From Anaspis maculata (lineage: Eukaryota; Arthropoda; Insecta; Coleoptera; Scraptiidae): a DNA stretch of 64,000 nt. Within the stretch, counting starts at the first letter, position 1. Each line of letters opens with the position of its first letter. The stretch is taken from contig OX421966.1 in the NCBI GenBank assembly GCA_949128115.1, forward strand, positions 68,755,416-68,819,415. Reading direction: 5' to 3'. The position numbers were made by a program, and so were the translations under genes. The notes under the pieces are model-generated. The model was not told where the DNA came from, ran no database searches, and worked only from the letters and a program-made list of their open reading frames with translations. Below are positions 13,313 to 45,400 of this stretch, piece by piece.

Positions 13313-16300
13313 ATGAAATCCAATGAGACCGAAATGAATCCGGTGAGTGGGCGCCGTTGCGACGGATATTGCCGGTTTTCTCGATGACTTTTTTCCGAAA
13401 CGTTTTTTTGCGACCGCCAGACATTTAGCAATTTTTCTGTTGTCAGTTTTTAGCCGAAAAGATCCTGCACGACCACAACAATCCTCTAGTCAAGGTCGAA
13501 GGACCGCCGGCCAAGTGCACGCTCAAGACGGAAACCAGGGCCGAAGAGTATGTCGAACAGATCGAGGAGAATGTCAGACACGAACATGTTGACAGAAGGT
13601 AAACAAGTCTGTGGAAAGTCACGTTGCTATTGTTGTTGTTGTTGTTGTATTTCTTGACAGCTGTCTGACTGTTTTATTTCAATTTGAAACCCTCAAGTCT
13701 CTCGAGTGTCTTGGATATTTTCATTCAGAGTTGGCGTGGGAAACAAGATTTTCATCAAATGGATCAGCCTGATTGGCCGGAGTAACTGGATATTGTGACA
13801 GCAGATTTAGCTCCAACAATTTGTTAGGTCGCAAGCTAGAACAAGTCTTTCTAAAAACTAAAAGCTAGAATCTTGCAATAATCTAGAAACCTCTCGAGAA
13901 ACCTATAGTTGCAGCGGTACGCTAGCGAAATGACCCTGATTCTGCATTTCGTGATACTGCAATGAAATTTGGCATATGCAAATTACGTAGAATTTCAAGT
14001 GATTTGACCCGCAGCACTCAAAAATTTGTCCATTAGGGGGCGACTGGGGGCCCCTCCAAATTTCAAGATGTCAGAGTTTCTACCATGCACCATTCAGTAC
14101 CGCCCTATCTACCGTACAGGACCTAAACAACTTTGTTCTTGACCATCATAACATTTTTCGTCATGTCAATTCCATTCTTCTCACAGAAAAAAATTATTTC
14201 TTTGTCTGGTCAACAAGTCGAGAAAAATATATTTTTTTGGACCACAAATAGATAGTTGAGTCGTTTTTGTGTGATCATCGATAAATCCGCATCCTCTTGA
14301 TTCATTTATGAAAACAAAAGTTTTGCTGTTCTATTCTTCAACGAAGGGGTGACCTCAACTTACCATTATTTTCAACATTACCTATTTCAATGTTTCATCC
14401 CTAAAAATATGATTATTATTGTACTAATATATAGCTTGAAGTTTTCTTCAACGGTGTGGATGATGAAACGGCCTCAGATTCCACCTGGAAGCCGTGCATA
14501 TTAATTTTTCTGCAAGGCCGTCAAATTTGGCATTTTTGATTTTCTACCGGGAGTGGACAAAATGTCAATACACACCACTCCGCCCAAGAGCACCGGTTGC
14601 AGTACTTTCGCAGCATCTCTCATTTCAGTATCACAAAATGCAGAATTGTTAGGCGTGAATATCGTTTTCCGCTAGAACAAACCGGTGCTCTTGGGCGGAG
14701 TGGTGTGTATTGACATTTTGGCCGCTCCCGCTATAAAATCAAAAATGCCAAATTTGACGGCCTTGAAGAAAAATTATTATGTATGGCTTCCAGGTGGAAT
14801 CTGAGACAGTTTCATCATCCACATCGTTAAAGAGAACTTCAAGCTGTATATTAGTATAACAATAATCATACTTACCGGGGTAAAACATTGAAAAAGGTAA
14901 TGTAGAAAATAATGGTAAGTTGAAGTCACTCCTTTGTTGAAAAATAGCACTGCAGAAGTTTTCTTTTCATAAATGAATCAAGGAGATGCGGATTCATCGA
15001 TGATCGCACAAAAACTACTGAACAATCTATTGGTGGTCAAAAAAATATATTATTTTCCAATTTGTTGACCAGGCAAAGAAATTTTTTTTTCTATAAGAAG
15101 AATGGAATTGACATGACGAAAAATGTTATGATGGTCAAGAACAAAGTTGTTCAGGTCCTGTACGGTAGATAGGGCGGTAATGAATGGCGCATGAGAAAAA
15201 TTCAGACATCTCGAAATTTTGAGGGGCCCCCGGTCGCCCCCTAATGAACAAATTTTTGAGTGCTGCGGGTCAAATCACTTCAAATTTTATGTAGTTTGCA
15301 TATGCCAAATTTCATTGCAGTATCACAAAATGCAGAATCAAAAAGCGTACCGCTGCAACTACTAGGCCTTGGCCTGGTTTCACAGAGCTTTGCTAAATGT
15401 ACTGTAGAACTAATTGATTCCATTACAATAGCTACAAGAAATTTAAAGATTGTTTAAGGGGTTTTAGGACTAATAATATTACAAAAGACTTCTTGTCACT
15501 GAGACGTTTCGCCCATGATTCTGGCCTTCCTCAGGCTGAAAATTTGTTTGAAACATTAATACAAGATGCGGCAGAAACAAATGTACAGGGTGTTCACGTT
15601 AAGATTGACCCCTTTCCCCCTCACAGCTGCCTTATCCCTGGGACGATTTCAAAAATGAAAACTGATTCTTGAAGGAGTTTCGCTAAATTTTTTGAATTTG
15701 CCCATAAATTTTTTCCAAATCATCAATTCACAGGGTATCGCAAAACATTTTTTTCCATTAACATGCAGTTGATGCAGTCTTTTATCCTGATTACAACGAA
15801 ATAAAGCACTTACGGGCTCATTTGACAAACAAACTGTCAAAATATTATAAATGTGACAGTTAGACTGTAGAAAAATCACAATCAAACCGATTTTGAGAAT
15901 TTTTTTCAACCTCCTCTAATTTTTTGGAAAAATGAACCCATAAGTTCTATATATATATTTTTTTATTAGTACCGTATGATCAAAAACTTTCCTTCTCTAG
16001 GTAGGCTGTGGTCTGGCCATTGGCAGGCAAACGAGGCTAATTTTGGCCAGGCCACAGCTTGCCTAGAGGAGGAAAGTTTTTGATCATACGGTATTAAGGA
16101 CAAAAGTCTGCATCCATTGCATTATTTGAATAAATATGAATGTAATAAAACAAGCTATTTTTTTGCGACACCCTGTATATTATGGATCTAGAAATTTTTT
16201 ATAAATTTGAAAAATTCAGCAAATATCCCTCACGAATCAATTTTTTTTTTCAATTGGTTCAAGCATAAACCAGCTAGTGGGGGGATCAATCTTAACGTGA

Positions 16301-19300
16301 ACAACTCCTGTACAGGTGTCCCGCCTAAAGTTGACCCCTTCCCATTATTTTCCTTATTCTTGAAGTATTTTTGTCGGTCAAAACTTTTTATTCAATCATT
16401 TACCATTCATTGTTTCAAGACAATGTCAAATTTTCTTCATCTTAACAATACAGGGCTCTTCAGAATTTTTTTTTAAACAGAATGCTATACAGGTGTTCCA
16501 ACGATGGTAGCAAAAAATATAACTGTGGTCAGATCTCGTGACAATATGACAAAAACCCATACCTCATTATGCAAAGTTCGGCCTAATGACAAAAATACAG
16601 CCCTTCCAAGTTTACTTTTTTTGGATTTCGAAAATTTGTAACTCAGGAACGTTTCGAAGAAATTGACTTGGATTCACCATAGACTTGTTTGTTGAAACTA
16701 TCTACCGACCTACCAAATTTTGAAAGAATCCAGACAGTGGCGTAGGAGTTACGAGAGTCCATAATTTAGAAGCATCAGAAGAAAAGTTAACTCAAGGTGA
16801 CCCCTCATAATTTCTACGCTACTGGTTGGATTCTTCGAAAATTTGGCAGGTTGATAGATCATGTTGATAAAACAGCTTATGCTGAATTTGAGCTAATTTT
16901 GTAGAAACGTTCCTGCGTTACTAATTTTTGAAATCCGAAAAAAGTTAACTTTGAAGGGCTGTATCTTCGTCATAAGGCCGAACTTTCAAAATGGTATATA
17001 GGTTTTCGTCATATTTTGACGAGATCTACCCACAGTTGAATTTTTTGCTATCATCCCTGGATCACCTTTATATCTACTTCACAAATAACAATTTTATGAG
17101 ACATAAAATGCCGAAAACATTACGCTCACTAGTGGAGCAAAAAACTAACAATAAGCAAGCCATGATTTTCATGTTACCATGGCTTCAATAAACAATAAGC
17201 TATATTAACAGAATTACATACCTATCATTATATTGTAACTAAAGCTATAACAAATCTATAAATCCTCCATTATTTTCTACGCAAAGATTACATCTTTTGA
17301 TGAAATTGTCCATAACTTTTTCGTAAGAATTAGGATTATTAAGAGTGTTTATTTCTCCAACGATCAACTCTTGGAGATGATTCCTGTTTTGAATATCTTG
17401 AACGTAGATTTTATCTTTTAGAGTCCCCCAAAGAAAATAATCGGGCGGATTAAGAGCTGGGCTCCGGGCTGGCCATAAAATGGTTCCGTTTCTCCCGAGC
17501 CATATAGGATACCTTTCATTTAAAAAGTATAGAACCACCCTCGTATTATGTGGCGGAGCCCGCCCCATCCTGCTGCCAAATCAAACTATTTATCCAATCC
17601 TATTGAATAATGCACGCATTGTCACGCGCATACATGCCTGCATTTTTCAATAAGACTGGATAAAGCATAGTATTCTACTCGCGGGTAATGGCTATTATTC
17701 ATTCGGATGCTTTACGACACTCGCCAAGGCTTGTGTCGGCAAACTGCATCCTTATGAGTAAGAAGCAATCATTACCCGCTTGTTGAATAATACAGGGTGG
17801 TGAAAATTTCGATGCTCACCATTGGTATCTTGGAAACGGTAAGAGATACGAGGTCGATTGAATTAGAAAAAAGTTGCGCATTTTTGTGGGAATTGAGAAT
17901 ATGTAAAGAAACTTTGAATATTTTGATTGGTTTACGATTTATTACGAAAAAACTGAAAATTTTGATTTCAGAAATTATTTTTTATCTTTCCAACCATTCA
18001 AGCTATTTCAATCAAACTTGGTAGTTTTATGTTTTTGATCACTCCGAGTCGATCAACGTTGACAGAAATTTTCCAGGCCTTCTAGATGTCAAATTATGAT
18101 AGTCAACTTTTGTTTTTCTCATGGCCGCCATATTGGATTTTTGCACAAATAGATAGAGGAAAGAAATAGCTTTCCGAATTAGTAACCAACATGTTCTTTT
18201 AATGACATTTTAAGCGTCAAATTTTGAAATTTTCGTAAATTATTGACAAAATCGAGAATGCTTTGAAAAACAATTGAAATATTGTCAATAGCAACAACAA
18301 AAAAGTGACAGATGGTGTGCAATTGACGTATCTAACTTCTTAATCGTGTTTTGCGCTTGTTTGTACCGGTAGTTCATAAATTGAATGGGTCAAGGGTGTC
18401 TGTGAGTTCAAAAACGTCTGTCGGAACTAGCATATCGTTCTTGTTAAAGTTGAAAAAATTTATTAGAAAAGGAGTGAGAATTACCCTAGTTTCGACAGAC
18501 GTTTTTGAATTCACAGGCACCCTTGACTCATTTAATTCATGAGCTCTCGGTACAAACAAGCACAAAACACGATTGAGAAGTTACGGCTCGATACCAAGTT
18601 GGGGCTGAGACCGCCGTAAGTGCCGTTACCATAGCAACGGCGGATACCAACCAATCAGACCACGCTGTATTTGGCGAGTTACGCCGTCCCAAACTTCGCG
18701 CCTGACACTTGGTATCGAGCCCTTAGATACGTCAATTGAACACAATCTTTTTTCTGTTGTTGCTATTGATAATATTTCAATTGTTTTTCAAAGCATTCCC
18801 GATTTTGTCAATAATTTACAAACATTTCAAAATTTGACGCTAAAAATGTCATAAAAAGAACATGTTGGTTACTAATTCGGAAAGCTAATTTTTTTCTCTA
18901 TTCATTGATGCAAAAATCCAATATGGCGGCCATAAGAAAAACAAAAGTTGACTATCATAATTTAACATCTAGAAGGCCTGGAAAATTTCTGCCAACGTTG
19001 ATCGACTCGGAGTGATCAAAAACATAAAATTACCAAGTTTGATTAAAGTAGCTTGAATAGTTGGAAAGATAAAAAATAATTTCTGAAATCAAAATTTTCA
19101 GTTTTTTCGTGATAAATCGTGAACCAAACAAAATATTCAAAGTTTCTTTTCAGATTCTTAATCGCCACAAAAATGCGCAACTTTTTTCTAATTTAACCGA
19201 CCTCGTATCTCTTACCGTTTCCAAGATACCAATGGTGAGCATCGAAATTTTCACCACCCTGTATACTATTCTTTGGATAAGGGGTAGTCGGTCAATGAAT

Positions 19301-19944
19301 TGCGCAATTTCACCATGTATAACGCTGTCCTGTGAGAGAACTCTCGATGAAAATTGGTCCAATTACTTCCCTCCGCAGAATTCCACACCATACAATGAGA
19401 GTTTGACGGCCTTGTTTCTTCACTTGACTTACTGCTCTGGGGTTTTCTTCTGTCCATATATGGACATTATGTCTGTTGAAAGATCCAGACGTCGAGAAAG
19501 AGGATTCATCTGTCCACACTATGTTTCTTAAGAAATTATTGTCAAAATCGTTGTCATTTCTAACATGGCTCTGCAAAAATTAATCCTATTTTCTCTATTT
19601 CTGGGATATAAGTAACTGCTGCGTAGGAAGGGTTTTGAACGGTTTGCGACGATTTTTCTTTAAAATTTTAGCTACTGTTGTTTTTGACACTTCCAATGCG
19701 ACTGCAGCAGAGCGCACAGAATCGTGTGGATTGACGATTTCTTGTGATATCCGCGACACTCTTTTCTCGTCTAAACTTTGCGTCTATTTTTTTACTTTCC
19801 CGGCCCACCCACGAACACGGAGGGAAAGTATTGTAATCGTGCAGAAAAAAAGTTTCGAGATTTCACCGGATATATCCGTTTTGAGGTCCTCCAAGACGAT
19901 TAAGACCATTTTCAGAATGATGTCTGTCTGTGTGTGTGTGTGTA

Positions 19945-19988
<44 letters not shown>

Positions 19989-22900
19989 TCTGTCTGTGAT
20001 CTTCCACGATAACTGCCGTAACGTTGACTGGATCGACTTGATATTTGGTATACAAACATGGTTGTTTCCTGAAAAGAGCCCATTAGTTTTTGGCTGTCAT
20101 CTGTCAAACCCAACTGTCACTATCATCAAATGTCAGAAGCTATATCTCACGGAACTCAACTTGCAATATGTCATTTGAAAGCCCTTGAAAAACTGTATTC
20201 AAAACAGTTAAAAACATTGCCCTATCTGTCATCTGTCAAATAATAAAAAATGTTAAAGTTCAAAACTTTACCAATTGATTATTCAAAATCTATCCGATGG
20301 ATTGGAACCAGATTTGGCAGGAAGCAACACAACAAAAGAGTCAAATTGAGGCCGCAGTTGCAGTTTTCCACCATTCTCCAGTTGAGCGTAATGAATTTTC
20401 GAAATTTCTCCTGGCCGTTGCCACTCAGGAGGGGCTCTCGCCGGTGTTTCGACCAGCACGACTCGCTTTTGTAGCAGGACTACACTCAAAAATTTATTCC
20501 TGCTCGGGGATCGACTTTTTTTTGGAAATTTCAACTGATATCGAAAGTAGATTGTATTGAGCGTCGTGCAGGTCTATTTTCAGAGTTGCCACGGTTTCGG
20601 TTTCCCGACTGTAATTTTTTCAAAATGAAATTTGCACATTCCGTGAATTTGAGAAAAACGCAATGCAAACTTCTACATGCGGTAAGCCCCACGAAATATC
20701 AATTTTAGGTGCAGACATGCTGTGAATAAAAGTTAGAGAAAAGATTGAGCTAATTTTTGAAGGAAAAAGTTTCGAAATCGGATCAACAGTTGCCGAGTTT
20801 TCCTCTCTGGAAAAACTGCAAATTTTCCAACTTTTTATTCCGTGAACAGATTTCTTGGAATGTTTCTTTTAGAGAATAGATAACTGGTTCTTGAACATTT
20901 TCCAATAATTTCTCTCCAATTTCCCGGAAATTTTCCTCCTGAAAATATAAAACCACTCATGCGATCGTACAAATTAAGCGGTTCTGTCACGATAATTACC
21001 GAATTATTGATCCGATCAAATCGAAATCAGGTACGGAGGCCTAAGTTCAGCCTGGAATGTTCTGATTAGACTTTGGGTGGATGATTTTGATCGGAAGCCC
21101 TCAGGTGGCACATTGGGTCTGGGTTTGTCTGCCCAAGCTCTAAATTGAAAATATAGAGTTGAAATTTGACACAAAGATGCAGTGAAAGTTTTCAATCAAG
21201 TTTTTGTAATTTCATCATCATATCTGAAGTAGGAACAAAAATTTCAATAAGGAACCAGCATTGCATTTTTGAGATATCACAACAGTTAGCTACCTAGTTC
21301 TACCTTTTGGATCATTTCATCACCTTGGAAAACTGACCTAACCTGTCATTTTTTCTGTCCGCTCAACAATGGATGCAGGATGCTCGCTAAACGCTCGACT
21401 AAATAGAATTTTTTCATCAATTTCCAAATCGAATCGCCCCCTCCCGAAGGGACACTTCGATCAAAATCATTACTGACGTCTCTGGATACCGCCGGGAAAG
21501 TTTTGTGTCGCCCCACAACAGATTTTTTAATGTGTTTTTCGAAGGCACTGGTCTTTGCGGATTCTTTCGAATAAACAAGCGCCTAGCAGCAGAACGTTTT
21601 TTTTTCCTCTGTCATCTTTCAAATTTGTTACAGCGGATTTTTGGCAGCAAGCAAATGAACTTGTGTTGCCATGGTAACATGAAAATCATGGCTTGCTTAT
21701 TGTAATGTCACGTTGCGTATCAATCACCTCTCTGATAGGCTGCTGCCAGGCAACGTGACGTCACAAGCGTAGAATTCTGCTCATCGTGATACGGCCCCTG
21801 AGTTGGAGTGAGATCAGTACAATCTGAATGCCTACTGCTATTACAGGGTGTTCCCGGTTTACTCTGCCAAACTTCCGGAGGTGATACTGAATAAAAGATA
21901 CAGAGTGATTCATGAGTGACCTTACATAGGCTAATGGGAGATAGAGGACTCCGAGGCGAGTCAGGATCCACTGAAGAAATTTTGTTTCCTCCATTGGTTA
22001 CGAAGATACAGGGTGTTTTGTGTGTTTCGTATGAAACTTTGATAAGCGATATATCTGAAACGGCTAGAGATATTTTCTTGAAATTCACCAGTAATATTTC
22101 TCTATTGGAACTTACCCTGTAGCCATACTGGGTAAGTCAAAATCCAGGGCCGGGATTGAAACAATGTGCCCCTTATTTACTTGATCAAAATGTATATTGT
22201 CTGACCGCTTTTCTAAAAAACTGCTATCGGATTCGAAAAGCTAAGGAAAAATGCTTCAAGAATCACTCTTCAATTTAGATGGCACACCTAAACCGTTTCG
22301 AAAAAAAAATTGAAAGTGAAATTTATGGATAGGTTTCCATTTTTGACCGGACATAATCGACTCATTGTTTGATTGAATTCATTTAAATTCATTTTTCAGC
22401 TTGTCTCTGTGGAATAGAAGGGCTTGGTAGGAAGTAAAATTCCATAGCCAAAGATTTTTTTTTGACGACCAAATCGAGTCTAATTTTGGTTTCACTCTCG
22501 ATTTTGTCATAAAAAAAAATGGTCGGCTCTGGAATTTTTCTTTAAACCAAGCTCTTCTATTCAACAGAGACAAGCCAAAAAATTAATTTTGATGAATTCA
22601 ATCAAACAATCAGTCGATTATGTCCGGTCGAAAATGGGAACTCACCCACAAATTTTACTTTTGATTTTATTGTCGAAACGGTTTAGGTGTGCCATCTGAA
22701 TTGAAGAGTGATTCTTAAAGCACTTTTCCTTAGCTTTTTTAATCCGATAGCAGTTTTTTAGAAAAGCGGTCAGAAAATGTACTTTTTAATGAAACAAAAA
22801 AGGGGCACCTTTTTTCTAGCCCGGCCCTGGATTTTGACTTACCCGGTGTGGCTTCGGGATGAGTTCCAACAGAGAAATATTACTGGTGAATTTCAACAAA

Positions 22901-25900
22901 ATACCTCTGGCCGTTTCAGAAATATCGCTTATCAAAGTTTCATACGAAACACACAAAACACCCTGTATTTTCGTAACCATTGGACAAAATAAAATTTCTT
23001 CAGTGGATCCTGACTCGCCTCGAAGTCCTCTATCTCCCATTAGCCTATGTAAGGTCACTCATGAATCACCCTGTATACGCGAATTTTTCAGGAAAATACA
23101 TTTTATAATGAATCTTGAACCGCTAATCCGGTTCTCTTGAAATTTGGCCTCGAATTTGGCCTACATGTTTTCTTGGTACAGGCCTGCGATCTACTCTCGG
23201 ATCTACTAAAAATAAATTAGTGAGTAAGTGAGAAATTAGGCGCAGTGAAAGAAACGCTTGCCTTCTTTTTCCACCCCTATTTTCTACGCCACTGGAAATT
23301 TTCTCCAAATTGAGCACATTTTCCAATTTCCGTTCAGGTTAGAGCAAAAAGTCACTCAAGTAAAATTTTGATCAGATACTTCGTTCTCGAGATGTTTCAG
23401 TTTGAACCAAGATTTAAACGTTTGAAAAACATCCCAGAAACATCAAAATCATAGAGCTACTGAATGTTTTTCAGTAGCTCAGTTGTCAGTTTGGGTGAAA
23501 TCTGTGATACATCGGCCAGAAAAACTTTTTTGAAACTTCGTAGACTTACATACTTAGTACCTACTTGATTTTTTTAATTTAAGAAATGAGAATTTGCTTC
23601 AAATCGCAAATTACCTGAAGGATAATGGCACTCAAACTACGAAACACGTTCACTCAATAACAAAAAAAAGTAGGTAGGTATCACTAGAAATCATGTGACA
23701 GATTACCATTTTTTCGGTTTTTCGATAAAAAAGAACTATTCCAATTCAAAAATAAACCCGATGTTCGTGTTCAGGGGGTCGAATCAGTTATAAAACATTT
23801 TTTTATAAGTAACAGAACGACGCTTATGTGGCCGGTTTGTCTGTCTGTCTGTCTGTCCGTGTAGAAATTAAGACGCCGTACTCCTTCTCGAGAATTGAAG
23901 CGAGAGCCTTGGAACTTTTTTCGATGGATAGCTGACGTCCCCAGAGGTGGCCAATGGGCACATTTTTGTTATCCATACACCGTTATCATTATTATCAAAA
24001 AACAGAGATCTCCTGTGCACTTCGAAGAAGTTGGACTTCTCTTCGGGAAATAAAGCGACAGCCCTTAAAAATTGAGCTTTATCCGATGGATAGCTTAGCA
24101 AATAGGCAGATTGGCTTTAATAATTCCGCCGCCATCTTGGCTGCCATATTGAAATCTCTTATTAGTGTACGATTTTCATGAAACTTGGAATGTACCTTTG
24201 TCTCGTATGATCAATTTTTATTTTCAAGCCAAATTTTATGATTCTGCCACCATCTTGGCCGCCATATTGAAGTCTCTTATTAGTGGAACGATTTTCATGA
24301 AACTTGGAACTTACTCTTGTCTAGTACGATCATTCTGATTTTCAAGCCGAATTTAATGATTCTGCTGAAATTTTGGCCGCCATATTGAAATTTTTTGCCC
24401 AAATAACGGTAGAACCCTAGTTAATTACTTAACATCTTGCGTTCACTAATCCTTCAAAAAGGAAGTGCGCTACTGAGCTTCATGCCCATGAGGCATATTC
24501 GCTTGTTCAAGTTCAACTTGTAACACCTGTATCTTCGTTGTTACGCATTTCTGAAATATACAGGATGTTACACTTTTTTCCAATATTTTAGGAGGTGGTA
24601 GAGCAAGCATCGAATAATTAGTTGACTTTCTCGGGAAAATTTCTATCCGAAACGCATTATAACGGAGATATAGGCTTTCAAAGTTGAGTTTTGAAAATGG
24701 TTTTTTGTCCTAAATCCAAATTTTGATCAAAGATACAAATAATAAGTTGCATTTATACAGTGGCGTAGATAGTCATTTATTTTGCTCTTCGTTAACCACG
24801 CCAGTGATTTTTCCCTTAATATTGTAATAATCAATATACATAATAAAAGTAAGTGCCAAATCTTTGTGCCGCTAAAACTCAGAAACGAGTACCGCTACGA
24901 TCAAGGGAGTTATATGGTATGGTAGCCCTTGGAAAAAAGGCCAAATCATGGCTCTTGCAAAAGATTAGCCTTTGCATCCAACGGGGAAATGCCACCAGCA
25001 TTTTGGGGACCGCCGACCGTCATTATTATTAATTTTTATTGTTATAACTTATTGTTTTTATTATATTATGGTAGCCCTATATCCCCCATCGATGAAGAAG
25101 GTTTCCGTTTTTACCCAAAGGGCGTGCTTTTGAAGATTTTTAGCTCTCTAGAAATGTCTAGAACAGTCCAGAACTTTCGAGAGTATTCGAGATCATTCAA
25201 CAACATTCCAGAATGTTTCGGTATGTTCTGGAATGTTCGGAAATAGTCTTCAACGTTCGAATAATAAAAAAAAGTGTACAGAGGTGCGTGCCGGAACTCA
25301 GAAACGAGTCCCAGTAGGATCAAAGAAGTTATATGGTGTGGTAGCCCTCTATGCCCCATCCATGAAGAAGGTTCTTGGTTTTCCTTGAAGGGCGGGTTTT
25401 TTTAAAGATAAAAAGGCTGGAACTTCCGCCCTCTAGAATGTCTAGAACAGTCCAGAACATCCGAAAGTATTCGAGATCAATCAACAACATTCCAGAATGT
25501 TCCGGTATGTTCTACAATATCCTGGAATAGCTTGGAACGGTCGGAAACATCCCGCAACATTCCAAATCATTGTGGAACATTCGAGATCATTCTACAACAT
25601 TCCAAAATGTTCCGGTATGTTCGGGAATGGTCGGGAATAGTTTGGGATGGTCGGGAATAGTTTAGGATGTTCGGAAACATCCCGTGATTATTCCACAATA
25701 TTCCAGAATGTTCGGGTATATCCGAGAATAGTCTGGAACGTTCTGAAACATTCCAATCCATTGTTGTACCTACATTCGAGATCGTTCCACAACATTTCAG
25801 ATTCCAGAATGTTCCGGTACGTTCTAGAATGTTCGAGAATAGTCTGGAACGTTCGAAAACATCCCGGAATATTCCAGATCATTGCGGAACATTCTAGATC

Positions 25901-28900
25901 ATTCTACAACATTCCAGAATGTTCAGGTATGTTCTGGAACGGTCGGGAATAGTCTGGAATGTTCCCAAACATTCCGAAATATTCCAGATCATTGTAGAGC
26001 ATTCAAAATCATTCCATAACAGTCCAAAATGTTTTGGTATGTTCTAAAATGGTCGGGATCATCTAGAACGTTCAAAAACATCCCGGAACATTCCAGATCA
26101 TTGTGGAACATTCGACATCATTCTATAACATTCCAGAATGTTCTGGAATTGTCGGGAATAGTCTGGAACGTTCTGGAACATTCCGAAATATTCCAATCCA
26201 TTGTGGTACCTACATTCGAGATCGTTCCACAACATTTCAGATTCCAGAATGTTCCGGTACGTTCTAGAATGTTTGAGAATAGTCTGGAACGTTCGAAAAC
26301 ATCCCGGAACATTCCAGAATGTTCCGGTATGTTCTGGAATGGTCGGGAAATACTGGAATGGTCGGGATCATCTAGAACGTTCAAAAACATCCCGGAACAT
26401 TCCAGATCTTTGTAGAGCATTCGTGATCATTTCACAACATTCCAGAATGTTTCGGTATGTTCGGGAGTAGTCTGAAACGTTCGAAAACATCCCAGAATGT
26501 TCCATTATGTTCTAGAATGATCGAAAATAGTCTGGAACGTTCGGAAACATCCTGGAACATTCCAGATCATTGTAGAACATTCGAGATCATTCTATAACAC
26601 TCCAGAATGTTCTGGAATTATCGGGAATAGTCTGGAACGTTCTGGAACATTCCGAAACATTCCAATCTATTGTGGTACCTACATTCGAGATCGTTCCACA
26701 ACATTTCAGATTCCAGAATGTTTCGGTACGTTCTAGAATGTTCGAGAATAGTCTGGAACGTTCGGAAATATCCCGGAACATTCCAGATCATTACGGAACG
26801 TTCTAGATCATTCTACAACATTCCAGAATGTTCTGGTATGTTCTGGAATGGTCGGGAATAGTCTGGAATGTTCGGAAACATCCCGAAATATACCAGATCA
26901 TTGTAGAGCATTCAAAATCATTCCATAACAGTCCAAAATGTTTTGGTGTGTTCTAAAATGGTCGGGATCATCTAGAACGTTCAAAAACATCCCAGAATGT
27001 TCCATTATGTTCTAGAATGATCGAAAATAGTCTGGAACGTTCGGAAACATCCTTGAACATTCCAGATCATTGTGGAACATTCGAGATCATTCTATAACAT
27101 TCCAGAATGTTCTATAATTGTCGGGAATAGTCTGAAATTCCCGAAAACATCCCGGATCATTCCAGATCACTGTGGAACATTCCAGAACACCCTTGAAAGT
27201 TCCTGCAACATTGTGGACCATTCTAAGCCTTTTTGATGTGGAGCCACCTATTAGTAAAGGTGCAGTACAGAATAAGTACAGAATATTCGAGAGTATTCAA
27301 GATCATTCCACAACATTCCAGAATGTTCCCGTATGTTCTGGAATGTTTGGGAATTGTCTGGAACGTTCAAAAACATCTCGAAACATTCTAGATCATTGTG
27401 GAACATTCTAGGACACTCTTGAAAGTTTCTGGAACATTATGAACTATTCGAAGCCTTTTTGGTGTGGGGCCACCTATTGGTAGAGGTGCAGTACAGAATA
27501 TTCGAGAGTATTCGAGATCATTCCACAACATTCCAGAACGTTCCGGTATATTCTGGAATATTCAGGAATAGTCTGGAACGTTCGGCCAGGAACATTCCAG
27601 AACACTCTCGAATGTTGTGGATTCTGGAAAGTTGTGATCCATTCGAAACTTTCTTTTGGTTTGAGTGGGGATACCCATTAGTAGGGGTGTATAAAGCAGG
27701 ATCCGTCGTGGTTTTGAACACCTGTTTCTTGCCAGTTGTTAATGAAAAGTTGATATGATATACATTTTACACAATGCCCAACGTGGAAGAGGAAATCTTG
27801 CCAGTTCTGTAGCAAGATGGCAAAAAAAAAAACGAGCAGCGAAAACATGAAAAAGTCGAAGAGCGCGAAGTACGGTAGATGTTCCCAACGAATAAGTAGA
27901 ATGTGCACCGTTAGATGCAGAGCAGTCACTCATGAAAATATCACCCTACGAGAAGCGCGAGCGAACGAGGACTAGGTTTCGCTCAGGGGCCGTATAACAC
28001 CCTGTATTTTATCAAGAAAGTTCACTTATTTTTTTGTTTTTTCTTCACCTTCTGAAGTTTGGTAGATTAAACCGGAAACACCCGATTCAGTTCAAACTGA
28101 AGAAACTTTAATGGTAGATTCTTTTAGCCGTCCTGATTCAGAACAATCTACAGGTTGGTCCAAGGTTTGGTAGGCAAATTTCGTAGGTCGATAGGGGGAT
28201 AAAAAAAGTGAACTCGCTCAAGGAGGTATAAATCCAAAATGCATAATTACAAAGTTACAGACTCTCAAAGTTGATGATAGAAAAAAGGCTTTTCATCACT
28301 AACTGAGGGAATGAAAATTTTAATTTCGAAAATTTCAGTGCTAAAAAATGCGGCTTTTTGGCTCTTTGAAATTACAAAATACTTTTTTTCCAGACAGAAC
28401 GCTCGTGTTTTTTCAGATTTCAATTTTCAGGTTGTTGAATTCGACGTTTTGAGGGTGTTTCTAAATCCTCCAGTCTCCACACTTGAATTTTAAATTGATC
28501 GTAGAATCTAAAAATTACATAAATTTTTCGAAATGTCCAGTGGTGTAAAAAGTTCAAGGTCAAAAGGCGAAATCCTCCAATAGCTACACCACTGAATCGT
28601 TTTGACAGAATTTTTTTGAGCAATCAGTGGGGACGTGTTCCAAAACCATTCATGCAGAGCTAGAGTAAAATCGATCAAGCGGTTCAAAAATTATTGGAAA
28701 AAAACTTGTTTCCTTACCAACTTTTGAGGGCCCATAACTTTGTTATTAGCATTTTACAAAATATATACTTTCTGGTGTGAGTTCACTTCTTTTTTTTTAA
28801 CCTGTAATGTTTATATTTGTCTCTTATTTTCTAAAAAAAAGAAAAGTATAAGGCGCCTCCACCATGTCAGAGACAAGAGACAAGGTCGCAACTGACCATT

Positions 28901-31900
28901 GATCTATTGAACTGAATTTTTGCTACCAACACCTGAACCACCCTGTATACTATATGCCTCCATCTCGCTTCCTAAAAATAATAAAGGATGTTAGATTAAC
29001 AAAAAAAAACAATGCCTTGCAAAAAAGCCCTAGGTATTGTATCAGGGCATTTCGAAAAATCGAAAAAATTGTGTGACACCCTGTATAGGGACATGAGATA
29101 GATACGAATAATATGTGCTTTCTTTTAACAACCTAAACTAAGTATTCTGACCTAAGTTGTTAGTAGTATCTCACTTTCGCGCATGTGATTTCTCGCTTTT
29201 TTTCTCTCTAACTTAGATCAGTGACTTTTGAGGTAAAAGGAAAGCACCTAATGTATTTAAAACTATAGAGAAAATCGCGTAAAAAATATTTTGTTCATTG
29301 AATTGTTCCGAAGGGAAACCCTTCAGGGTGGGGTAGAGTTTATGCTGCAGAAGAGCTCTACCTACCACGAGTCCGTAGGACGAGTTTTGTTGGCAAAATG
29401 TTATACTTATAAAAATGCTTATGAAAACCCGATGAAAACCGTATTGGACTAAACTACTGATGGTAAACGGGTAGCCAATTTGACAAGTTTGGTGATTTTT
29501 TTTTTTGGAATGCTGGCTTGTATGTAAGTAACAATGCACCTGCCAGCGAGTGGAGTCAGATTTGATAAGAATGTTAGTACGTTTGGACCAAGACCAATTA
29601 TTTCAGTCTTATCAAACCACGTATACCTACAACAAAAAATGAATTATACAAGTTATAATGATCAAGGAAAATTTTGATAGTCTTACAGCCAGTTCCACCA
29701 AAATTTTATGAGCAAAGTTGTCATGCAGCAGTCACTAGCATGGTCGATTTCTTAGTATGAACGCAATAAAGTCAATTCGCTCGTGAGACTGGTAGAACTG
29801 GCTATGAGAACGTTAAACTGAATGATTAGTTAGTTTCTAATGTTCAATTCACAATTTCAGATGTAACAGAGTCAAAGCAGTGTGGCTACCAGACAGAAAC
29901 TTGGCAAAAGTCACCAAAGCTTCAGGAGCAACTCTGGGAAATTTCGGTTATCAGGACAGGACCGGCAAATATCTCTACCCAGAAGAAACGCTTTTCTTGC
30001 TTGAAAATGTAAGTTGTTTTTTTTGTATTCTTTATAATGTACTAGGTAGCTAGAGTGCGTTCGATTTGAGAAGAGCACATTTACCATCCACATCTGACCG
30101 TGACATGCTCACCAGTGGCATATTACTTGCGTTCTGGAATGAGGCATTTCAGACAATCATCAACATCATCTGTCCTAAATTTGAACATCATATCTTGTCT
30201 GGACTTATTTTCTCCTGCAAAATTTTGTTTTGTGTGCTATTTCTGAAAGTGGACGAACTCTTTTGTCACACATATCTTTAAACTTTCACAGGACACTCAC
30301 TCCGACACACTAACATCAATCATTTTTCAACTCCGTTTTCCAGTGTAACTTTTTTTTCAGGTAAATTGGAAGCATTGGAGCATGATTTGATTTTTTCAAA
30401 TTTCAGAATTATTGTCTTCACGATGTTTACTCCAAATTTTGAACCCTAAAATCAATTTTTAACAAAAAAATTGAATAAAATTGAATATTTTCGTAACTTT
30501 AAGAAGCTAAAAGCTGTTACAAGTATAGTCACAATTTGTATTGAAATACAAACAAAATTTGATCTTGCCTACATCGATTTGTTTTCGGAGAAGCCCACCC
30601 ATGACTTGGACACCCAAGTCTTATAAGTAATTCTACTTATATTGTGTATTTGCCTATTACGTACAATGTCTAGCACCTACCTCGTTCACTTGCGCTGCCC
30701 TACTCGCATAATCGGTTCACCCACGTTCACTCGCAGGCAAGGGAACAATTCTCCCTTTTTGGACCGGTCGGACAGGCCCGATCCGTTCGACTCCACTGCA
30801 CTTGATGAGACTCAACCCGTAAGTTCCCGTCACACTCATTGCGTGTTGCTTTTACTAGCGAGTGGCGACCGCTTCTTCGCGGGGAGAAGGCCGACCTCAA
30901 ACCATACTTGTGACAAAGCTCAACTTCCAAAAAGTAAACACAGAGGTGGAAAGTGCTCGTCAAGGCCTTTTCTGGGAGGTGCCACATTACACACTTCCAT
31001 CCACTTTGTAATTGAATGGCTCCGATTTTGTCTTTTTTCACAAATTCGAAAACGTAATGAAATTTCAGCATTACGTACTCCAGTTGAAACTCGTTTTCGG
31101 CTTAAGCGACATCTAACTTCATACTTTTTACTACTTTTTATTTCAAGTTCTAGTGATCACCTGTTTAATTCGTCAATTTCGTTCCAGAACAAGCTGGAGC
31201 TGTCCAACTTGGAAGACGTGACGCTGAGCATACAGGAAAGCTATGCACTGGTGATGAAGTGCCCCGGCTTCAGCTTCGTGGAGTACTGCACGTACAGGAA
31301 CCTCGCCCATCAGGGCTTCAAAATCACCAGAGAAATGAAACCGGGCAGCAGCTATTACGATTTCACCGTAAAAAAACGCAAGGGAAGCGAGGTCGAACCG
31401 GAAGAGCCCGCATTGACGCAGCAAGAGGCGCACTGTTCCAAGGTGCTGCGTCTGGAGGAGCAGTCGAACTCGGGAGACGGGAGCGTTTTCGAAGCCCTGC
31501 GGCAGAACGGACCCCAGCAGGTGCTCGAATCGTCGACGAGCGACTCGAGCACCTCCAATCCCGAATATTTCGCCTACATGGCCGGGGCTAGCAGCAACCA
31601 GGCGGCCGGCAGGCCCGGACCGGATTTTAATTTATTTATTAGGTAATGCGTGCGTACCATATGCGTGAGATTATGAGGATGATGTATAAATTATTTTAAT
31701 ATTAAACCAATACTACTAATAATGACACAGTGAATGAATAAAGAGCTTGTTGGAACAATCTGGTTTCTTTTGTTTTGTAGACAAGGACAGGACGTGGAAT
31801 TCGGAAGGAGTAGAGAAAAGGACGTGTACGCCGTCAACCCCAACGGTTCCAAGGTTTCGTTTTTCAGATTCGTCACCGTAAACATACCGGGCAATTACTG

Positions 31901-39400: not shown

Positions 39401-42400
39401 TTTTCAACATTTTCTGGACTCCCTGACCTTCCATAGAATTTAGTTCATCATCAAATCTACCGTGATGACAGATACATTGGTCACTCTTTCCTAATTATTT
39501 ATTATAAATTATATATTTATAACTCGGTTCCACTAAAAAGATAATAGGAGATTAGTTGATTCGTGATGGTTTATCCCTCAATAATGAAAAGATGATCGGT
39601 CCAGTACAGATTTCAGGCATTTTTTATGGTTAATCGCCTAACATTAAGCAGAAAAAAGTTCAGTTGATCTGCAATCAGCCTTGATCGCTGCTCTTTTTTT
39701 TGTGGAACTGACGGTTAGTATAAATATATTGATAAACTATATATTCATCATCATAAATTTCCAAATTATTTTTCGTGCAATCACAATCTTATCATGGACC
39801 AGTTCCATAAGTTTCAGAGTTTTTCCAATTTATGTCTAATCAATTGGAACCCCTCAAAACCCCATCCTGCGACGCGGTGTTTTCAATTAATTTGCCAGTG
39901 ATAATGACCTTATTATGGATCAGTCCCCAGAGTTTCAGAATTTTTCTAATTCATTTCGATTTTATCCCCCTCAAATCAACCTAGTTTTGAATAAGAATAC
40001 TACAATGCCGCAGCTTGCCTATTACTGCACTGACCGCGGGTTCCACCAAAATTTTAAGAGCAGATTAAATCTATAACGCTGATAGTTGCTATGCACCAGC
40101 CAATAGGATGACCAGTTGCTTAGTTACTATCAGAGTGATAAAGTTATCGCGTTGATAAAAGTTTGGTGGAACCCGAGGTTAGAGTAGTTTTTCTTTTTAT
40201 ACAAGTTTTATTAGGTACGCCACTGAGATCGTTCAAGCGCATGTTTTGTACTCCCGGAAAATTCGCGAATTGTTGCGGTTTTGGTGCGTCGGAAAGCTCT
40301 GAAATGTTGTACGATAGACAGTTGAAGATATAGTGCGGTACACAGATTGTTTGCCGAGCTCAAAGTGCGCGCTAAGACGGCCCGCGGGACTTGCTTAGTG
40401 CAGCAGCTGTCAAATTAACATTAAATAAACATTATCAGCCTTGTTTTTTGGACAGTCGCATGTGGTGATAGTGAGCAGCAGCGGCGTATCACTAAGAGGG
40501 GCTTACCTCGTGACCCGGAATGCTCTATTGCAGAGCTTTCGGGTACTAAGTAGAATCGGATGAACAATCCTGAAAACCCATTCAACCGCTCGATCAAAAT
40601 GACGAGGACGCCGCCCGAAGGAGAGAAAAAATCAAAGAAACCTCGAGTTCATGATGATGATAACCAGGCTCCAGGGGATCTACAGGTAGAACCCCCGCCG
40701 CAGGACAACCACACTGAATTCCAAAATGCACCCAATCATGAAGGCGGTGCAGACTGTGAGGAAACGGACTACAGAGACTCCCAGAATGAAGATGAGACAG
40801 GCCGTTACGTTCAGGAAATTTTCTACGCTACGGACGAGATTAAAAAGTCTGTTCCACTAGAGGGAAACCCCCATATTCGCACGATATTTTTCGCTGTGGA
40901 CCACATAACACAGAATCTACTCAGAATTACAAGGAAAAGTGGTAATGTAGAGACAGACAACATCAAATTGAAGTTTGAAAACTACAAACTGAAAAACAGG
41001 ATCAAAGAATTGGAGAGCCAATTAGTTGGAGTCAACGACAAACATGCAGACTCCAAAGGAGACACTTACGCCCGGGTAGTTCAGAGCGACACAAGAAGGA
41101 AACAAACGACACCTCTAAGAACGGACAGCAGTGAAAAAACCTATGGACGTCTAGAACCAAGGCACCGTGAAGAAGAGAGCTTGGAACATCAAGAGTGGAC
41201 AACTCCACCACAAGCAAAGAGATTTGAAACAATGCTGAAGGCTGGGAAAGTTGAAGAAACAAGAAAACACTGGAAAGAAATGAAGAAAGAAATAACGAAA
41301 GAAGATTTACAAGGCGCACTGAAGAGCATAAGAACCAGAAACGACGGAACAATCATCCTAGAAAGTCACAGCGAGCAACAGAGAGTAAAATTACACGAAA
41401 TACTCAAGAAGAACAAAGAAATTTCTTATCAAGATGTGCAAAACACTGATCCCATGTTGATGCTAACAGGAGTTGAAGCAGGATATACTGAGCAGGAAAT
41501 CAGAGACATGCTGATCAACGAAAATGAAGAAATCGACCAGAAAGAAGAATCCAGGGAGACCATCATCAGGCTGATAGCTAGGAAGAAGTGTAGAAATGCC
41601 AAAAAAGAAAACCTCATTCTGCAACTTTGTCCAAGAATCTTCAAGGCACTGATAAGAAGCGAACAAATCAACTTTGACTTGACTAGAATACATATCAGAG
41701 AGTACATCAATCTGGCGATATGTTTCAAGTGCTCTGGATTCGGTCATGTCGCAAAAAACTGCTCCTCAGAATCCTGCTGTCACAGATGCGGTGGAAGGCA
41801 CGACGGGCAAAACTGCACAGCGCAAGAGCTAAACTGTCCAAACTGTAAGAAGCTGGGAATCTCGACAAGATGTCATTCTGCCCGTGATATAAACTGTCCA
41901 GGCTACAAAAAGAAGTTGGAACAAGTTAGAAAACAAGTCAACTACAATACCAGTGAAAATGGTAGTGCATAGCAGAGAATGTGTGAGGGTGCTAATGTTT
42001 TGAAAGAGACGAGACAGGACTCGCAAGATGAAAGTGTTAGTTTCCAAAGAGTGAATGAAGATCGGCAAGAAATTGCTGGACATGAAAGGGCAGCACGTGA
42101 ACAGCAAAAAGTGGACTTATGTGCGAGAGTCGGTTTTGAAAGAAAAAATGTGTCCATTGTTTTTTGGAATGTTCAAGGCTTTAAAAATTTGGAAACATTT
42201 GTGAGCGATAATCGAGAGTTTGACATTCTGTGCATTAGCGAAACTTGGCTCACAAGTGAATTGTCGGCTCCTCCTGAGTATTTAGCTGATTATCGGGTAG
42301 TCTCTTCACCTGCACTGCGAGAGTTTTCACGCGGCAGGGCGAGTGGCGGCTTGCTGTTTTTTTGTGAAAAGCAATATTCGGTCGACACCATTCATGTATC

Positions 42401-45400
42401 TCCACATTGGATAGTGTGCAGGGTTGGTTACCGGGATTCTAGCATTATTATATGTTCTGTGTATTTTAGACCGCTTTTTGAGATCAAATCAGTATTAGAG
42501 CTCTTTCATTCTGTGCTAGACGATGTGGTCTCGGATTACCCAGACATCATGTGTGTGATTGGTGGTGACTTCAACTGCAGAACGGGTTCTGGGGGGGAGA
42601 TTCCGCCTGAGGTGCTGGAGGGCTGCGATCTTTTTGAATCAAGAAAATCTCGGGATGAGAACGTGAACGGGAGGGGTCGCACCTTGCTTGAGTTTATGAC
42701 AGACAATTCATTTTTTCTTCTCAATGGCAGGACTCGACACGACTGTCCGGGAGGGTATACCTATTGTGGCCCGGGGGGGAGGAGCACCGTAGACTATGTT
42801 TTCTGCTCGGCACTGGGCTTGGGTCAGGTTAGTGACTTACGGATAATGGATGATGTTATTGAATCTGATCATTTCCCTGCGAAATTAGAACTGCATGATT
42901 TTTTTAACCGTGAAATTCCCGTAATGCACACGCGACTGACAACCAGCGAAACATATATGACATGGAGAGAAGATCTAAGTTTGAACTATGCATCTGCAAT
43001 GCAATATTCTCCTGGAATCGCGTTAAAGGGTGGGGTTCAGGAATCTTTCGACAATTTGTGTAACGTGATGCTGCAGGTGTCTGGTTATCTTGGCCTCAGG
43101 AGGCAAAAAGTGTTTGGGTTCGCGACAAAAAGATTTGCCAACAAGAAATGGTTTGATATGGAGTGTAGGGAAGCAAAAAGAATTTTAAAAGATAGTCTGA
43201 AAGAATGTAAACAAAATAATTTTTCAGCGCAACACGTGCACATTTATTTGAATTCGAAAAAGCAGTACGGTAAGTTACTTAGATCAAAAAAGAGTAATTA
43301 TGATGAAGCGTGCGTGGAGGCGGTTGGTAATGCAAAGGACTCAGCGACATTCTGGAGATCCCTGAGGGGACTTCGAAGTTCACCTACTAACGCGAAGGTC
43401 AATCTCACAGTTGAACAGTGGGAAGAATTTTACAAAGACGTTTACACCCCGAGGGTTTCTCTGGGAGTCAGCTTTTTTGATGCTGGAAGTGAAATCTTGG
43501 ACTCCCCTATCACTTTTGAACAGCTTTCGGGTGCTTTGAGTAAATGTAAATCAAGAAAATCGCCCGGTCCTGATGGGTTTGCTTTTGAGTTTTTTAAAGG
43601 TTTACCGCAGAATTGGTTACTTTATTTACAGAGCATGTTCAATGCGGTGCTGTCATCCGAGGTACTGCCAAGACAATGGAGTAATATATCCATTGTGATG
43701 TTGCACAAAAAGGGACCCGTAGATGATCCTCTCAATTACAGGGGTATTGCATTAACCAACTGCTGCACTAAGATCTTCACTCAGATTCTTCTAGAGAGGC
43801 TGGTCGCGTGGACTGACATGACTGGAGTCATTCCTGAATGTCAGTCAGGATTCAGAGAGGGACGCGGATGCCTGGATGGCGTATTTGTTTTGAATTCGCT
43901 GATTCAGATTCAGCTGAGGCTAAAGAGAAGACGAGTCTATGCGGCATTTATTGATTTCAAGAGAGCTTTTGACTCTCTAGACCATTCAATTTTGTGGCAC
44001 AAATTGTACAGTCTTGGTCTGAGTGCCAAGATCATCCGGATTTTGAAAAAGCTGTATGATTGTGCTACTATGCGTGTCAGGGTTGGCGGTGAATACACAA
44101 GAAGTTTTGATGTAACGTCCGGCGTTCTACAGGGAGAGACTTTGAGCCCACTTCTGTTTTCTCTCTTCATCTCGGATATGGAAGGATTCTTCCGGGAGTC
44201 GGGTGTTACGGGTTTGAACATCAACAACTATACCGATATTGTACTGCTGCTGTATGCCGATGATTTGGTCATCCTGGGTGATTCGCCTGCTGATATCAAC
44301 CGCAAACTCCGAGTTCTCCAGTCTTACTGTCGGAACAATCGATTAACAGTCAATGTTGAAAAGTGTAGCGTCCTTTGTTTTGGTAGAGGTTGTTCTGGGT
44401 GGGACAGGGGTTTAACATTTCTTTATGGTGAGCAGAAAATAAAAACGGCAAACAGCTATACTTACCTGGGAATCCAGTTTTGCTCCTCCTCGGTATTCCT
44501 ACAAGCGTCCAAGGCTGCAGTGACAAAAGCTAAAACGGCCACTGGGGGGGTGATGTCTTTGATGTCTCGAGCTAAGGTTGACTGCTGGGATTCGCGTATC
44601 CGGTTATATCAAGCAATAGTTATAAGCTCCATCTCACATTGCATAGCGGTTTATGGTCTAAGATATGTAGAACTCATAGGAAGGATACAAGTTCATTTTT
44701 TCAAAAGGCTACTCTCATTGGCTGGAAACACGCCTGATTATATTGTGCGTCTGGAAATGGGACTACCCAGATTGTCCTTGTACATTTTGGAGATGGCGCT
44801 CAACTGGATCGAAAGAGTTCTTAGAATGAATAACAGACGCTTTCCGAGATTATGCTTTGATAGGTTGGCCGCGATTGAATCGGGTGAGTCAAGGTACAAC
44901 TGGGCTTCGCAAGTCAAAGAGTATTTTGTTGGGGCGGGTCATGGACAGTCGTGGTTGAATTTGGAAAGCGGAAGTTTTGACTTGTGCAGGGGTGACATCC
45001 TCTCATTCTATAGAGATAAGTACCTAAGGGAAGACATTGAGAGGGCTCGGTCCTCCAGCTTTTCGGGTCGGTTTGTCACTTTTAACTTTGACGAAAATCC
45101 CAAAGATTATCTGCGGTTGAGGTTGCCCATTCACTACACTAGACTGATCGCTCAAATGAGACTTGCTAGCGACAAATACATAAAGCTATCGTTCAGGGGC
45201 ATATGTTACAGAATAGCTGCTGATGAGATATGCTCCATTTGCAATCTCAACCAAAATGAAGATCTGAATCATTTTTTGTTCAAATGTCCTCTCTACTCCA
45301 ACATAAGATCTGCATACATATCCAAAAATCTTAGTAACACCGATGATTTGTTTGTATTTTTAGATGAAAATGTGCGGGGTAAAGTAGTGAAAGATATTTG

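Follow-up and report, generated by a model that had tools for sequence, protein, structure and literature searches.

Within a 64-kb window, by which we mean the whole stretch of DNA analysed, lies a 2.5-kb array with many motifs resembling the sites of heat shock factor (HSF). The question raised by this locus is whether these heat shock elements (HSEs) have been kept as a platform for HSF, or whether they are simply what a decamer repeat of this kind yields. The structure of the array, the number of its HSEs relative to several kinds of shuffled sequence, and the divergence among its internal copies bear on the answer.

Structure of the array and its surroundings

According to a cyclic HMM, positions 25147-27648 form a tandem decamer array of 2.5 kb in four blocks without assigned strand: block 1 (25147..25260), the main block 2 (25432..27225), block 3 (27279..27451) and block 4 (27494..27648). 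The consensus of the units, GAAYRTTCNR, is near-palindromic with a 10-bp period; the identity at lag 10 is 0.545, and lags 20, 30, 40 and 50 are likewise raised. The 2.5-kb array of 10-bp period described in the initial annotation was thus borne out, the period being 10.0 bp, but its description as built entirely of HSE boxes was overstated: among the 207 complete units (cyclic HMM), GAA is found in 92, TTC in 118 and both intact in only 54, and the array is broken up by linkers of 171, 53 and 42 bp, with 16 phase breaks in the same model. It had also been claimed that successive boxes recur on a helical turn. Since the turn of B-DNA is about 10.5 bp and the period is 10.0 bp, the sites share one face of the DNA locally but not over the whole array; about 21 units correspond to one full turn of drift around the helix.

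Block 2 contains internal duplications that are about 92% identical: 25726-26102 corresponds to 26635-27011, 26058-26335 to 26527-26804, and 26464-26637 to 26964-27137. A tandem array of units within 10-100 bp, with higher-order blocks derived from duplication, is a minisatellite, and this array has both properties. A search with its own 131-aa ORF gave no related protein at E values up to 0.001. Two Pfam matches in the translation of the array, OST48_MD (below the cut-off) and DUF6578 (above the cut-off in one scan and below it in another), were both taken as chance matches to a repetitive peptide.

The array is interspersed with non-array modules, also without assigned strand. The 5′ module occurs as copy 1 (24840..25146), which carries an insertion of about 130 bp (about 24930-25061) between TATGGTAGCCCT-type direct repeats, and as copy 2 (25261..25431). 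The cyclic HMM further delimits linker A (27226..27278), linker B (27452..27493), which resembles it, and linker C (27649..27689), a diverged linker copy that closes the array. Directly 3′ of the array is a TATAAAG word on the plus strand (27690..27696), possibly a core promoter to judge from its sequence; the plus-strand background of TATAAA[AG] in the window is 0.22 per kb.

The nearest recognised exon is 2.2 kb downstream of the array. It is an internal exon of a TSEN54-like gene (29862..30008, plus strand), which encodes the Sen54 N-terminal domain and has an acceptor before it and a gtaagt donor after it. The last recognisable exon of this gene (31188..31646, plus strand), whose start was placed by a ttccag acceptor, matched four Sen54 chains weakly (E 0.30-0.42). 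No acceptable upstream or first exon came out of four scans for motifs of known Sen54 proteins, and the location of the array within an intron of this gene is unproven.

Occurrence of HSEs in the array and in shuffled sequences

HSF sites were scored by consensus boxes with allowed mismatches, not by an HSF position matrix. With an HSE defined as three or more nGAAn boxes in alternation, spaced 5 bp apart, exactly 20 maximal perfect runs of alternating TTC/GAA boxes are found in 25141-27690, seven of them with four boxes, just as had been counted by eye. Six of the seven runs cited as examples have exact coordinates, while the other, 25802-25839, consists of two runs (25802-25814 and 25822-25839) split by a broken box. 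The same region holds 27 overlapping perfect three-box sites, as compared with a mean of 0.10 and a maximum of 2 in 500 dinucleotide shuffles; the remainder of the window holds 2. When up to one mismatch is allowed and all three G positions are intact, 72 non-overlapping sites are found. The density of HSF-type sites in the array is therefore real and far above what base composition gives.

A different picture emerges when the period is retained in the shuffling. Two kinds of period-preserving shuffles gave 65.4 and 52.6 perfect three-box sites, against the 27 observed, and all 300 shuffles of each kind were at or above the observed number. In the non-redundant part of the array, 13 perfect sites were found against 24.3 in the period-preserving shuffle. 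Over the array as a whole, sites with up to one mismatch (202) were about as numerous as in 40 shuffles of each kind (202.6 and 189.2). Only 1.2 sites arose when the TTC/GAA words were retained but the period was not; therefore, it is the periodicity that makes the sites. The initial annotation had regarded the array as purpose-built and had itself named period-preserving shuffles as a test; by that test, a purpose-built array, selected as a platform for HSF, is not supported.

Divergence of boxes and spacers

Over 50 overlapping segments, the box positions differ at 248 of 2966 and the spacers at 336 of 1958. In the three duplicate pairs of block 2, differences were found at 22/493 core versus 36/325 spacer positions (p = 0.0004), and at 11/427 versus 20/285 (p = 0.008) after the pair ends were trimmed by eye where differences clump at breakpoints. 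For transversions alone, the trimmed pairs gave 2/427 in the core and 5/285 in the spacer (p = 0.12), and the rates in the untrimmed pairs were similar (10/493 and 5/325). These counts supersede an earlier BLAST-based one (core 47/463, spacer 64/307; outside CpG-type contexts, 38/388 and 5/49), which lacked the longest duplicate pairs.

CpG decay was not adopted as the cause of the spacer variability, because the observed/expected ratio of CpG is close to 1 (0.95 in the window and 1.02 in the array). Nor does it obviously explain the lower divergence of the boxes: with the CpG-type context held constant, 22 of 58 differences fall in the core, against 30.4 expected. Lower divergence of the box positions is also what constraint on the boxes would give. 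Intact boxes (7/222 changed), however, show no advantage in conservation over broken boxes (4/204), and the evidence from conservation is ambiguous.

Similar arrays in other sequence collections

Stretches with at least eight perfect boxes were found in 11 prokaryotic contigs, each with 9-20 consecutive boxes; the records are mostly MAGs or drafts. To our knowledge, prokaryotes have no HSF. Among viral contigs, the eight-box HSE pattern gave 3 stretches, two of which carry the same array, as compared with 7 for each of two control words matched in composition; the six-box pattern gave 15 stretches. The prokaryotic and viral arrays are no match for the 2.5-kb array in length, because their periodic extent is at most 108 bp (stretches L001-L026). 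No similar DNA was found in phages or plasmids, and two words of the array had no exact match in viral contigs. With a synthetic decamer peptide as the query, 15 of 19 protein matches show the residue pattern over two turns, which suggests that the decamer unit recurs elsewhere, although these are matches of proteins only and the query itself selects for the pattern.

Origin of the array

We consider, with a probability of about 70%, that the array is an ordinary, decaying minisatellite of a dyad-symmetric decamer with higher-order structure, and that its match to the HSF pattern is incidental. Its period, near-palindromic unit and block duplications are matters of observation, and so is the fact that it has no more HSEs than follow from the period. 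This reading is favoured because HSEs are no fewer in period-preserving shuffles, because intact boxes are no better conserved than broken ones, because core and spacer transversion rates are similar in the untrimmed pairs, and because short HSE-type decamer arrays occur in prokaryotic contigs as well. It is also favoured by the excess of control-word stretches over HSE-pattern stretches in viral contigs, and by a simulation in which 3.7% of dyad-symmetric decamer units were HSE-like (0.35% of random units). On the other side are the lower divergence of the boxes than of the spacers and the much shorter length of the prokaryotic and viral arrays. The array resembles ordinary decamer minisatellites in its 10-bp unit, higher-order blocks, decay and phase breaks, and differs from them only in its HSE-like consensus.

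Such an array would have grown by tandem duplication of the 10-bp GAAYRTTCNR unit and later of longer blocks, the unit coinciding by chance with the HSF recognition pattern. Where heat stress leaves the chromatin accessible, HSF trimers would be expected to bind a number of the 20 perfect sites passively, and occupancy of the array under heat is possible in view of its sequence. An influence on the adjacent TSEN54-like gene, if there is one, would then be incidental, not kept by selection.

Alternatively, the array may belong to a mobile element, as a regulatory region through which HSF serves the element's own transcription, comparable to the Helitrons of Caenorhabditis or ONSEN; the HSEs upstream of the TATAAAG word would then drive heat-induced transcription of the element. 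The modular flanks repeated together with the array, the position of TATAAAG directly after it, and the precedents described in PMC6927752 and PMC3907296 are consistent with this. So is the HSE density: PMC6927752 scores bins of 1 kb that exceed 10 HSEs, and by the motif NGAANNTTCNNGAAN given in its methods the densest kb of the array (start 25801) has 16 sites, although in a sliding window. Nevertheless, we regard such an origin as unlikely. A six-frame Pfam scan of 16231-31232, which did find the TSEN54-like exon, detected no transposon protein domain, neither a Rep/helicase domain (present only in autonomous Helitrons) nor a pol domain. No Helitron 3′ end, a hairpin with a stem of 7-12 bp plus CTRR, was found in the flanks scanned (27600-28700 on the plus strand and 24300-25200 on the minus strand), and an LTR containing TATAAAG was rejected since the 64-kb window has no second LTR copy. 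The sole candidate for terminal inverted repeats, TACAGGATGTTA (24559) and TAACACCCTGTA (28006), is weak: identity ends after about 13 bp, and these 13-14 bp are a word common throughout the window (35 occurrences with up to three mismatches, against 16.6 expected by shuffling).

Among known systems, human satellite III forms large pericentromeric arrays, binds HSF1 and is transcribed under stress, whereas the present array, with predicted HSF sites, is 2.5 kb long and lies beside a gene. The likeness lies in a short-period repeat with HSF-type sites (PMC9032817). The closest precedent is the Helitron-associated clusters of Caenorhabditis, in which repetitive DNA likewise carries HSEs packed densely, in tandem and with overlaps, at more than 10 sites per kb (PMC6927752). 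The array, whose HSF sites are predicted, differs from them in having no Helitron end or Rep/helicase domain in the stretches scanned. In ONSEN, nGAAn boxes are located in the LTR of a copia element and HSFA2 binding has been demonstrated (PMC3907296); the array shares with it HSE-type sites of potential use to a mobile element, but no LTR pair in the window and no coding part were found.

A host stress enhancer or HSF sink kept by selection, which would influence TSEN54 or titrate HSF, is very unlikely. The 20 perfect and 72 mismatch-tolerant predicted sites upstream of the TSEN54-like exon, the lower divergence of the box positions, and the common occurrence of HSF binding in introns of Drosophila, as given in PMC3021535, would agree with such a role. 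However, perfect runs fall short of the number predicted by period-preserving shuffles, and the intact boxes have fared no better than the broken ones.

The relevant factor could also be TEAD/Scalloped instead of HSF, since its MCAT core, CATTCC(A), is as frequent as the perfect HSEs: the array contains 33 copies of CATTCCA, a density of 13.2 per kb, whereas the remainder of the window has 0.21 per kb. As a by-product of the same repeat unit, in which TEAD sites would be as incidental as the HSEs, it does nothing to separate the two factors, and we find this highly improbable. Least probable of all is an action through structure, with hairpin RNA or a cruciform leading to small RNAs: the folding energy for 601 nt of array sequence is −213 kcal/mol (z = −12.4 relative to 20 dinucleotide shuffles), but dyad-symmetric decamer arrays would be expected to fold so, and a transcript of the array is hypothetical.

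Implications

If HSF does bind the array, the locus would represent a high-density HSE cluster that lacks visible signs of a Helitron, at variance with PMC6927752, which reports no such clusters outside Helitrons in the genomes it examined. It is distinctly unlikely that an animal other than Caenorhabditis carries dispersed multi-kb HSE arrays that HSF binds during heat shock and that place neighbours such as TSEN54 under stress control, as an independent counterpart of the Helitron clusters outside Helitrons. The minisatellite reading carries a caution instead: palindromic decamer repeats yield HSE-like arrays of themselves, even where the organism has no HSF, and the density of sites alone is therefore no evidence of function.

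Structure of the decamer array

The array at 25147–27648 is real. Between 25141 and 27690, 20 maximal runs of at least three perfect alternating TTC/GAA boxes were counted, seven of them with four boxes, as the initial annotation had stated, and the three-box sites (the HSF trimer pattern of the heat-shock element, HSE) numbered 27 in the array, as compared with a mean of 0.10 in dinucleotide-shuffled sequences (n = 500) and 2 in the rest of the window. The 10-bp period was also borne out: the lag-10 identity is 0.545, higher multiples of ten behave likewise, and a cyclic HMM gave the unit GAAYRTTCNR in four blocks, interrupted by three linkers and 16 phase breaks. However, the description of the array as built entirely of boxes stands only in part: perfect boxes are dense, while both boxes are intact in just 54 of the 207 complete units.

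The main block contains internal duplications of 377, 278, and 174 bp (~92% identity). Since the 5′ module of non-array DNA occurs twice (24840–25146 and 25261–25431) and the 3′ linker three times, the region ~24840–27690 reads as a single compound repeat. Copy 1 of the 5′ module carries an insertion of ~130 bp (24930–25061) that copy 2 does not have; with TATGGTAGCCCT-type direct repeats on both sides and an A/T-rich end, it looks like a retroposed fragment.

Density and rarity of the HSE-like sites

Sites were scored by consensus boxes, not by an HSF matrix, against three types of shuffles, with 300 runs of each type. When the TTC/GAA words were shuffled and no period was kept, 1.2 three-box sites remained, while shuffling bases within each phase and shuffling whole units gave 65.4 and 52.6, respectively, with at least 27 in 300/300 cases for both; thus, the period creates the sites. 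A purpose-built array, as had been proposed, would be expected to exceed the period-preserving shuffles, and the counts do not support this idea. In the 109 of 207 units left after removal of the duplicated part, 13 sites were observed versus 24.3, a value as low being found in 0/2000 shuffles. The comparison indicates that broken units space out the intact ones, which are not strung together. Sites with at most one mismatch numbered 202, versus 202.6 (within-phase) and 189.2 (whole-unit; 40 shuffles each). Because the shuffles take units as independent, yet many share ancestral blocks, the deficit is no clean significance test, and the safe statement is that the HSE density is no higher than in period-preserving shuffles.

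In simulation, a random decamer unit was HSE-like in 0.35% of cases and a dyad-symmetric unit in 3.7%. Searches for stretches of at least 8 perfect boxes gave 11 prokaryotic and 3 viral contigs, and two control words of equal composition, the only two used and on viral contigs alone, gave 7 and 7 viral stretches. The prokaryotic arrays have 9–20 consecutive boxes, whereas no run in the window exceeds four; the prokaryotic and viral arrays are at most 108 bp, far shorter than the 2.5-kb array here. At the protein level, a synthetic decamer peptide gave 19 matches at E ≤ 0.01, and 15 of them showed two turns of the decamer-dictated residue pattern, which the query itself selects. Among the papers listed in literature searches, no title or abstract opening described an HSE-decamer array in an insect. 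Caenorhabditis Helitrons are reported to carry HSE clusters in PMC6927752, which concludes that none occur outside Helitrons in the genomes examined there; its results text and methods print the HSE motif differently, and the methods version was applied here.

Box conservation and other readings

Box positions differ less than spacers in 50 overlapping segments (248/2966 versus 336/1958) and in three duplicate pairs, both untrimmed (22/493 versus 36/325, p = 0.0004) and trimmed (11/427 versus 20/285, p = 0.008); with CpG-type context fixed, 22 of 58 differences fell in the core versus 30.4 expected. Taken alone, this lower divergence favours constraint. However, constraint on HSF binding should shield intact boxes, and no box-specific conservation was found between duplicates, although the numbers are small: 7/222 positions differ where one or both copies keep the box intact and 4/204 where it is broken in both. 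For transversions, the untrimmed (boxes 10/493, spacers 5/325) and trimmed (2/427 versus 5/285, p = 0.12) data disagree. On these small counts, the evidence on constraint is mixed.

CATTCCA, a TEAD core sequence, occurs 33 times in the array, on par with perfect HSEs. The RNA fold of the array is strong (z = −12.4), as palindromic decamers should give. The word TATAAAG lies at 27690, immediately 3′ of the array, and is at most a candidate promoter element. A bold alternative, that the array is a dispersed repeat bound by HSF, is possible but improbable.

Genomic setting

A six-frame Pfam scan of 16231–31232 gave a Sen54 N-terminal domain at ~29865–30005 (+) as the sole accepted match above the cut-off; this TSEN54-like exon is preceded by an acceptor and followed by gtaagt. 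A further exon at ~31.2–31.6 kb shows weak Sen54 likeness (four PDB chains, E = 0.30–0.42). An upstream exon of this gene was sought and not found, so the array sits either within a TSEN54-like intron or upstream of the gene. On the opposite strand, a sulfotransferase-domain exon (33.4–33.8 kb) is presumably that of a heparan-sulfate 3-O-sulfotransferase.

Other elements were also seen in the window. An inverted repeat at 21898–23076 has 566-nt arms (89% complementary), a 47-nt spacer, and TACAG-type ends, and TACAGGGTG-like words occur throughout the window (35 versus 16.6 expected). An inverted pair of ~550 bp (17785–19271; 93%) has TACAGGGTGGTGAA ends, and the nearby ORF at 17248–17580 (−), mariner-like by eye, had no match in Pfam. 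At 40554–45452, a non-LTR retrotransposon ORF of 1159 aa has endonuclease and reverse transcriptase domains (best relative 42% identical); the 472-aa ORF ahead of it shows, by eye, motifs resembling zinc knuckles. A separate 118-bp tandem repeat (24116–24391, 2.3 copies) contains CCGCCATCTTGGC-like words, and a 485-aa C2H2 zinc-finger ORF at 1200–2654 (−) overlaps a 96-bp tandem repeat.

Taken together, this beetle carries a genuine HSE-like minisatellite, whose likeness to the HSE is most likely incidental.
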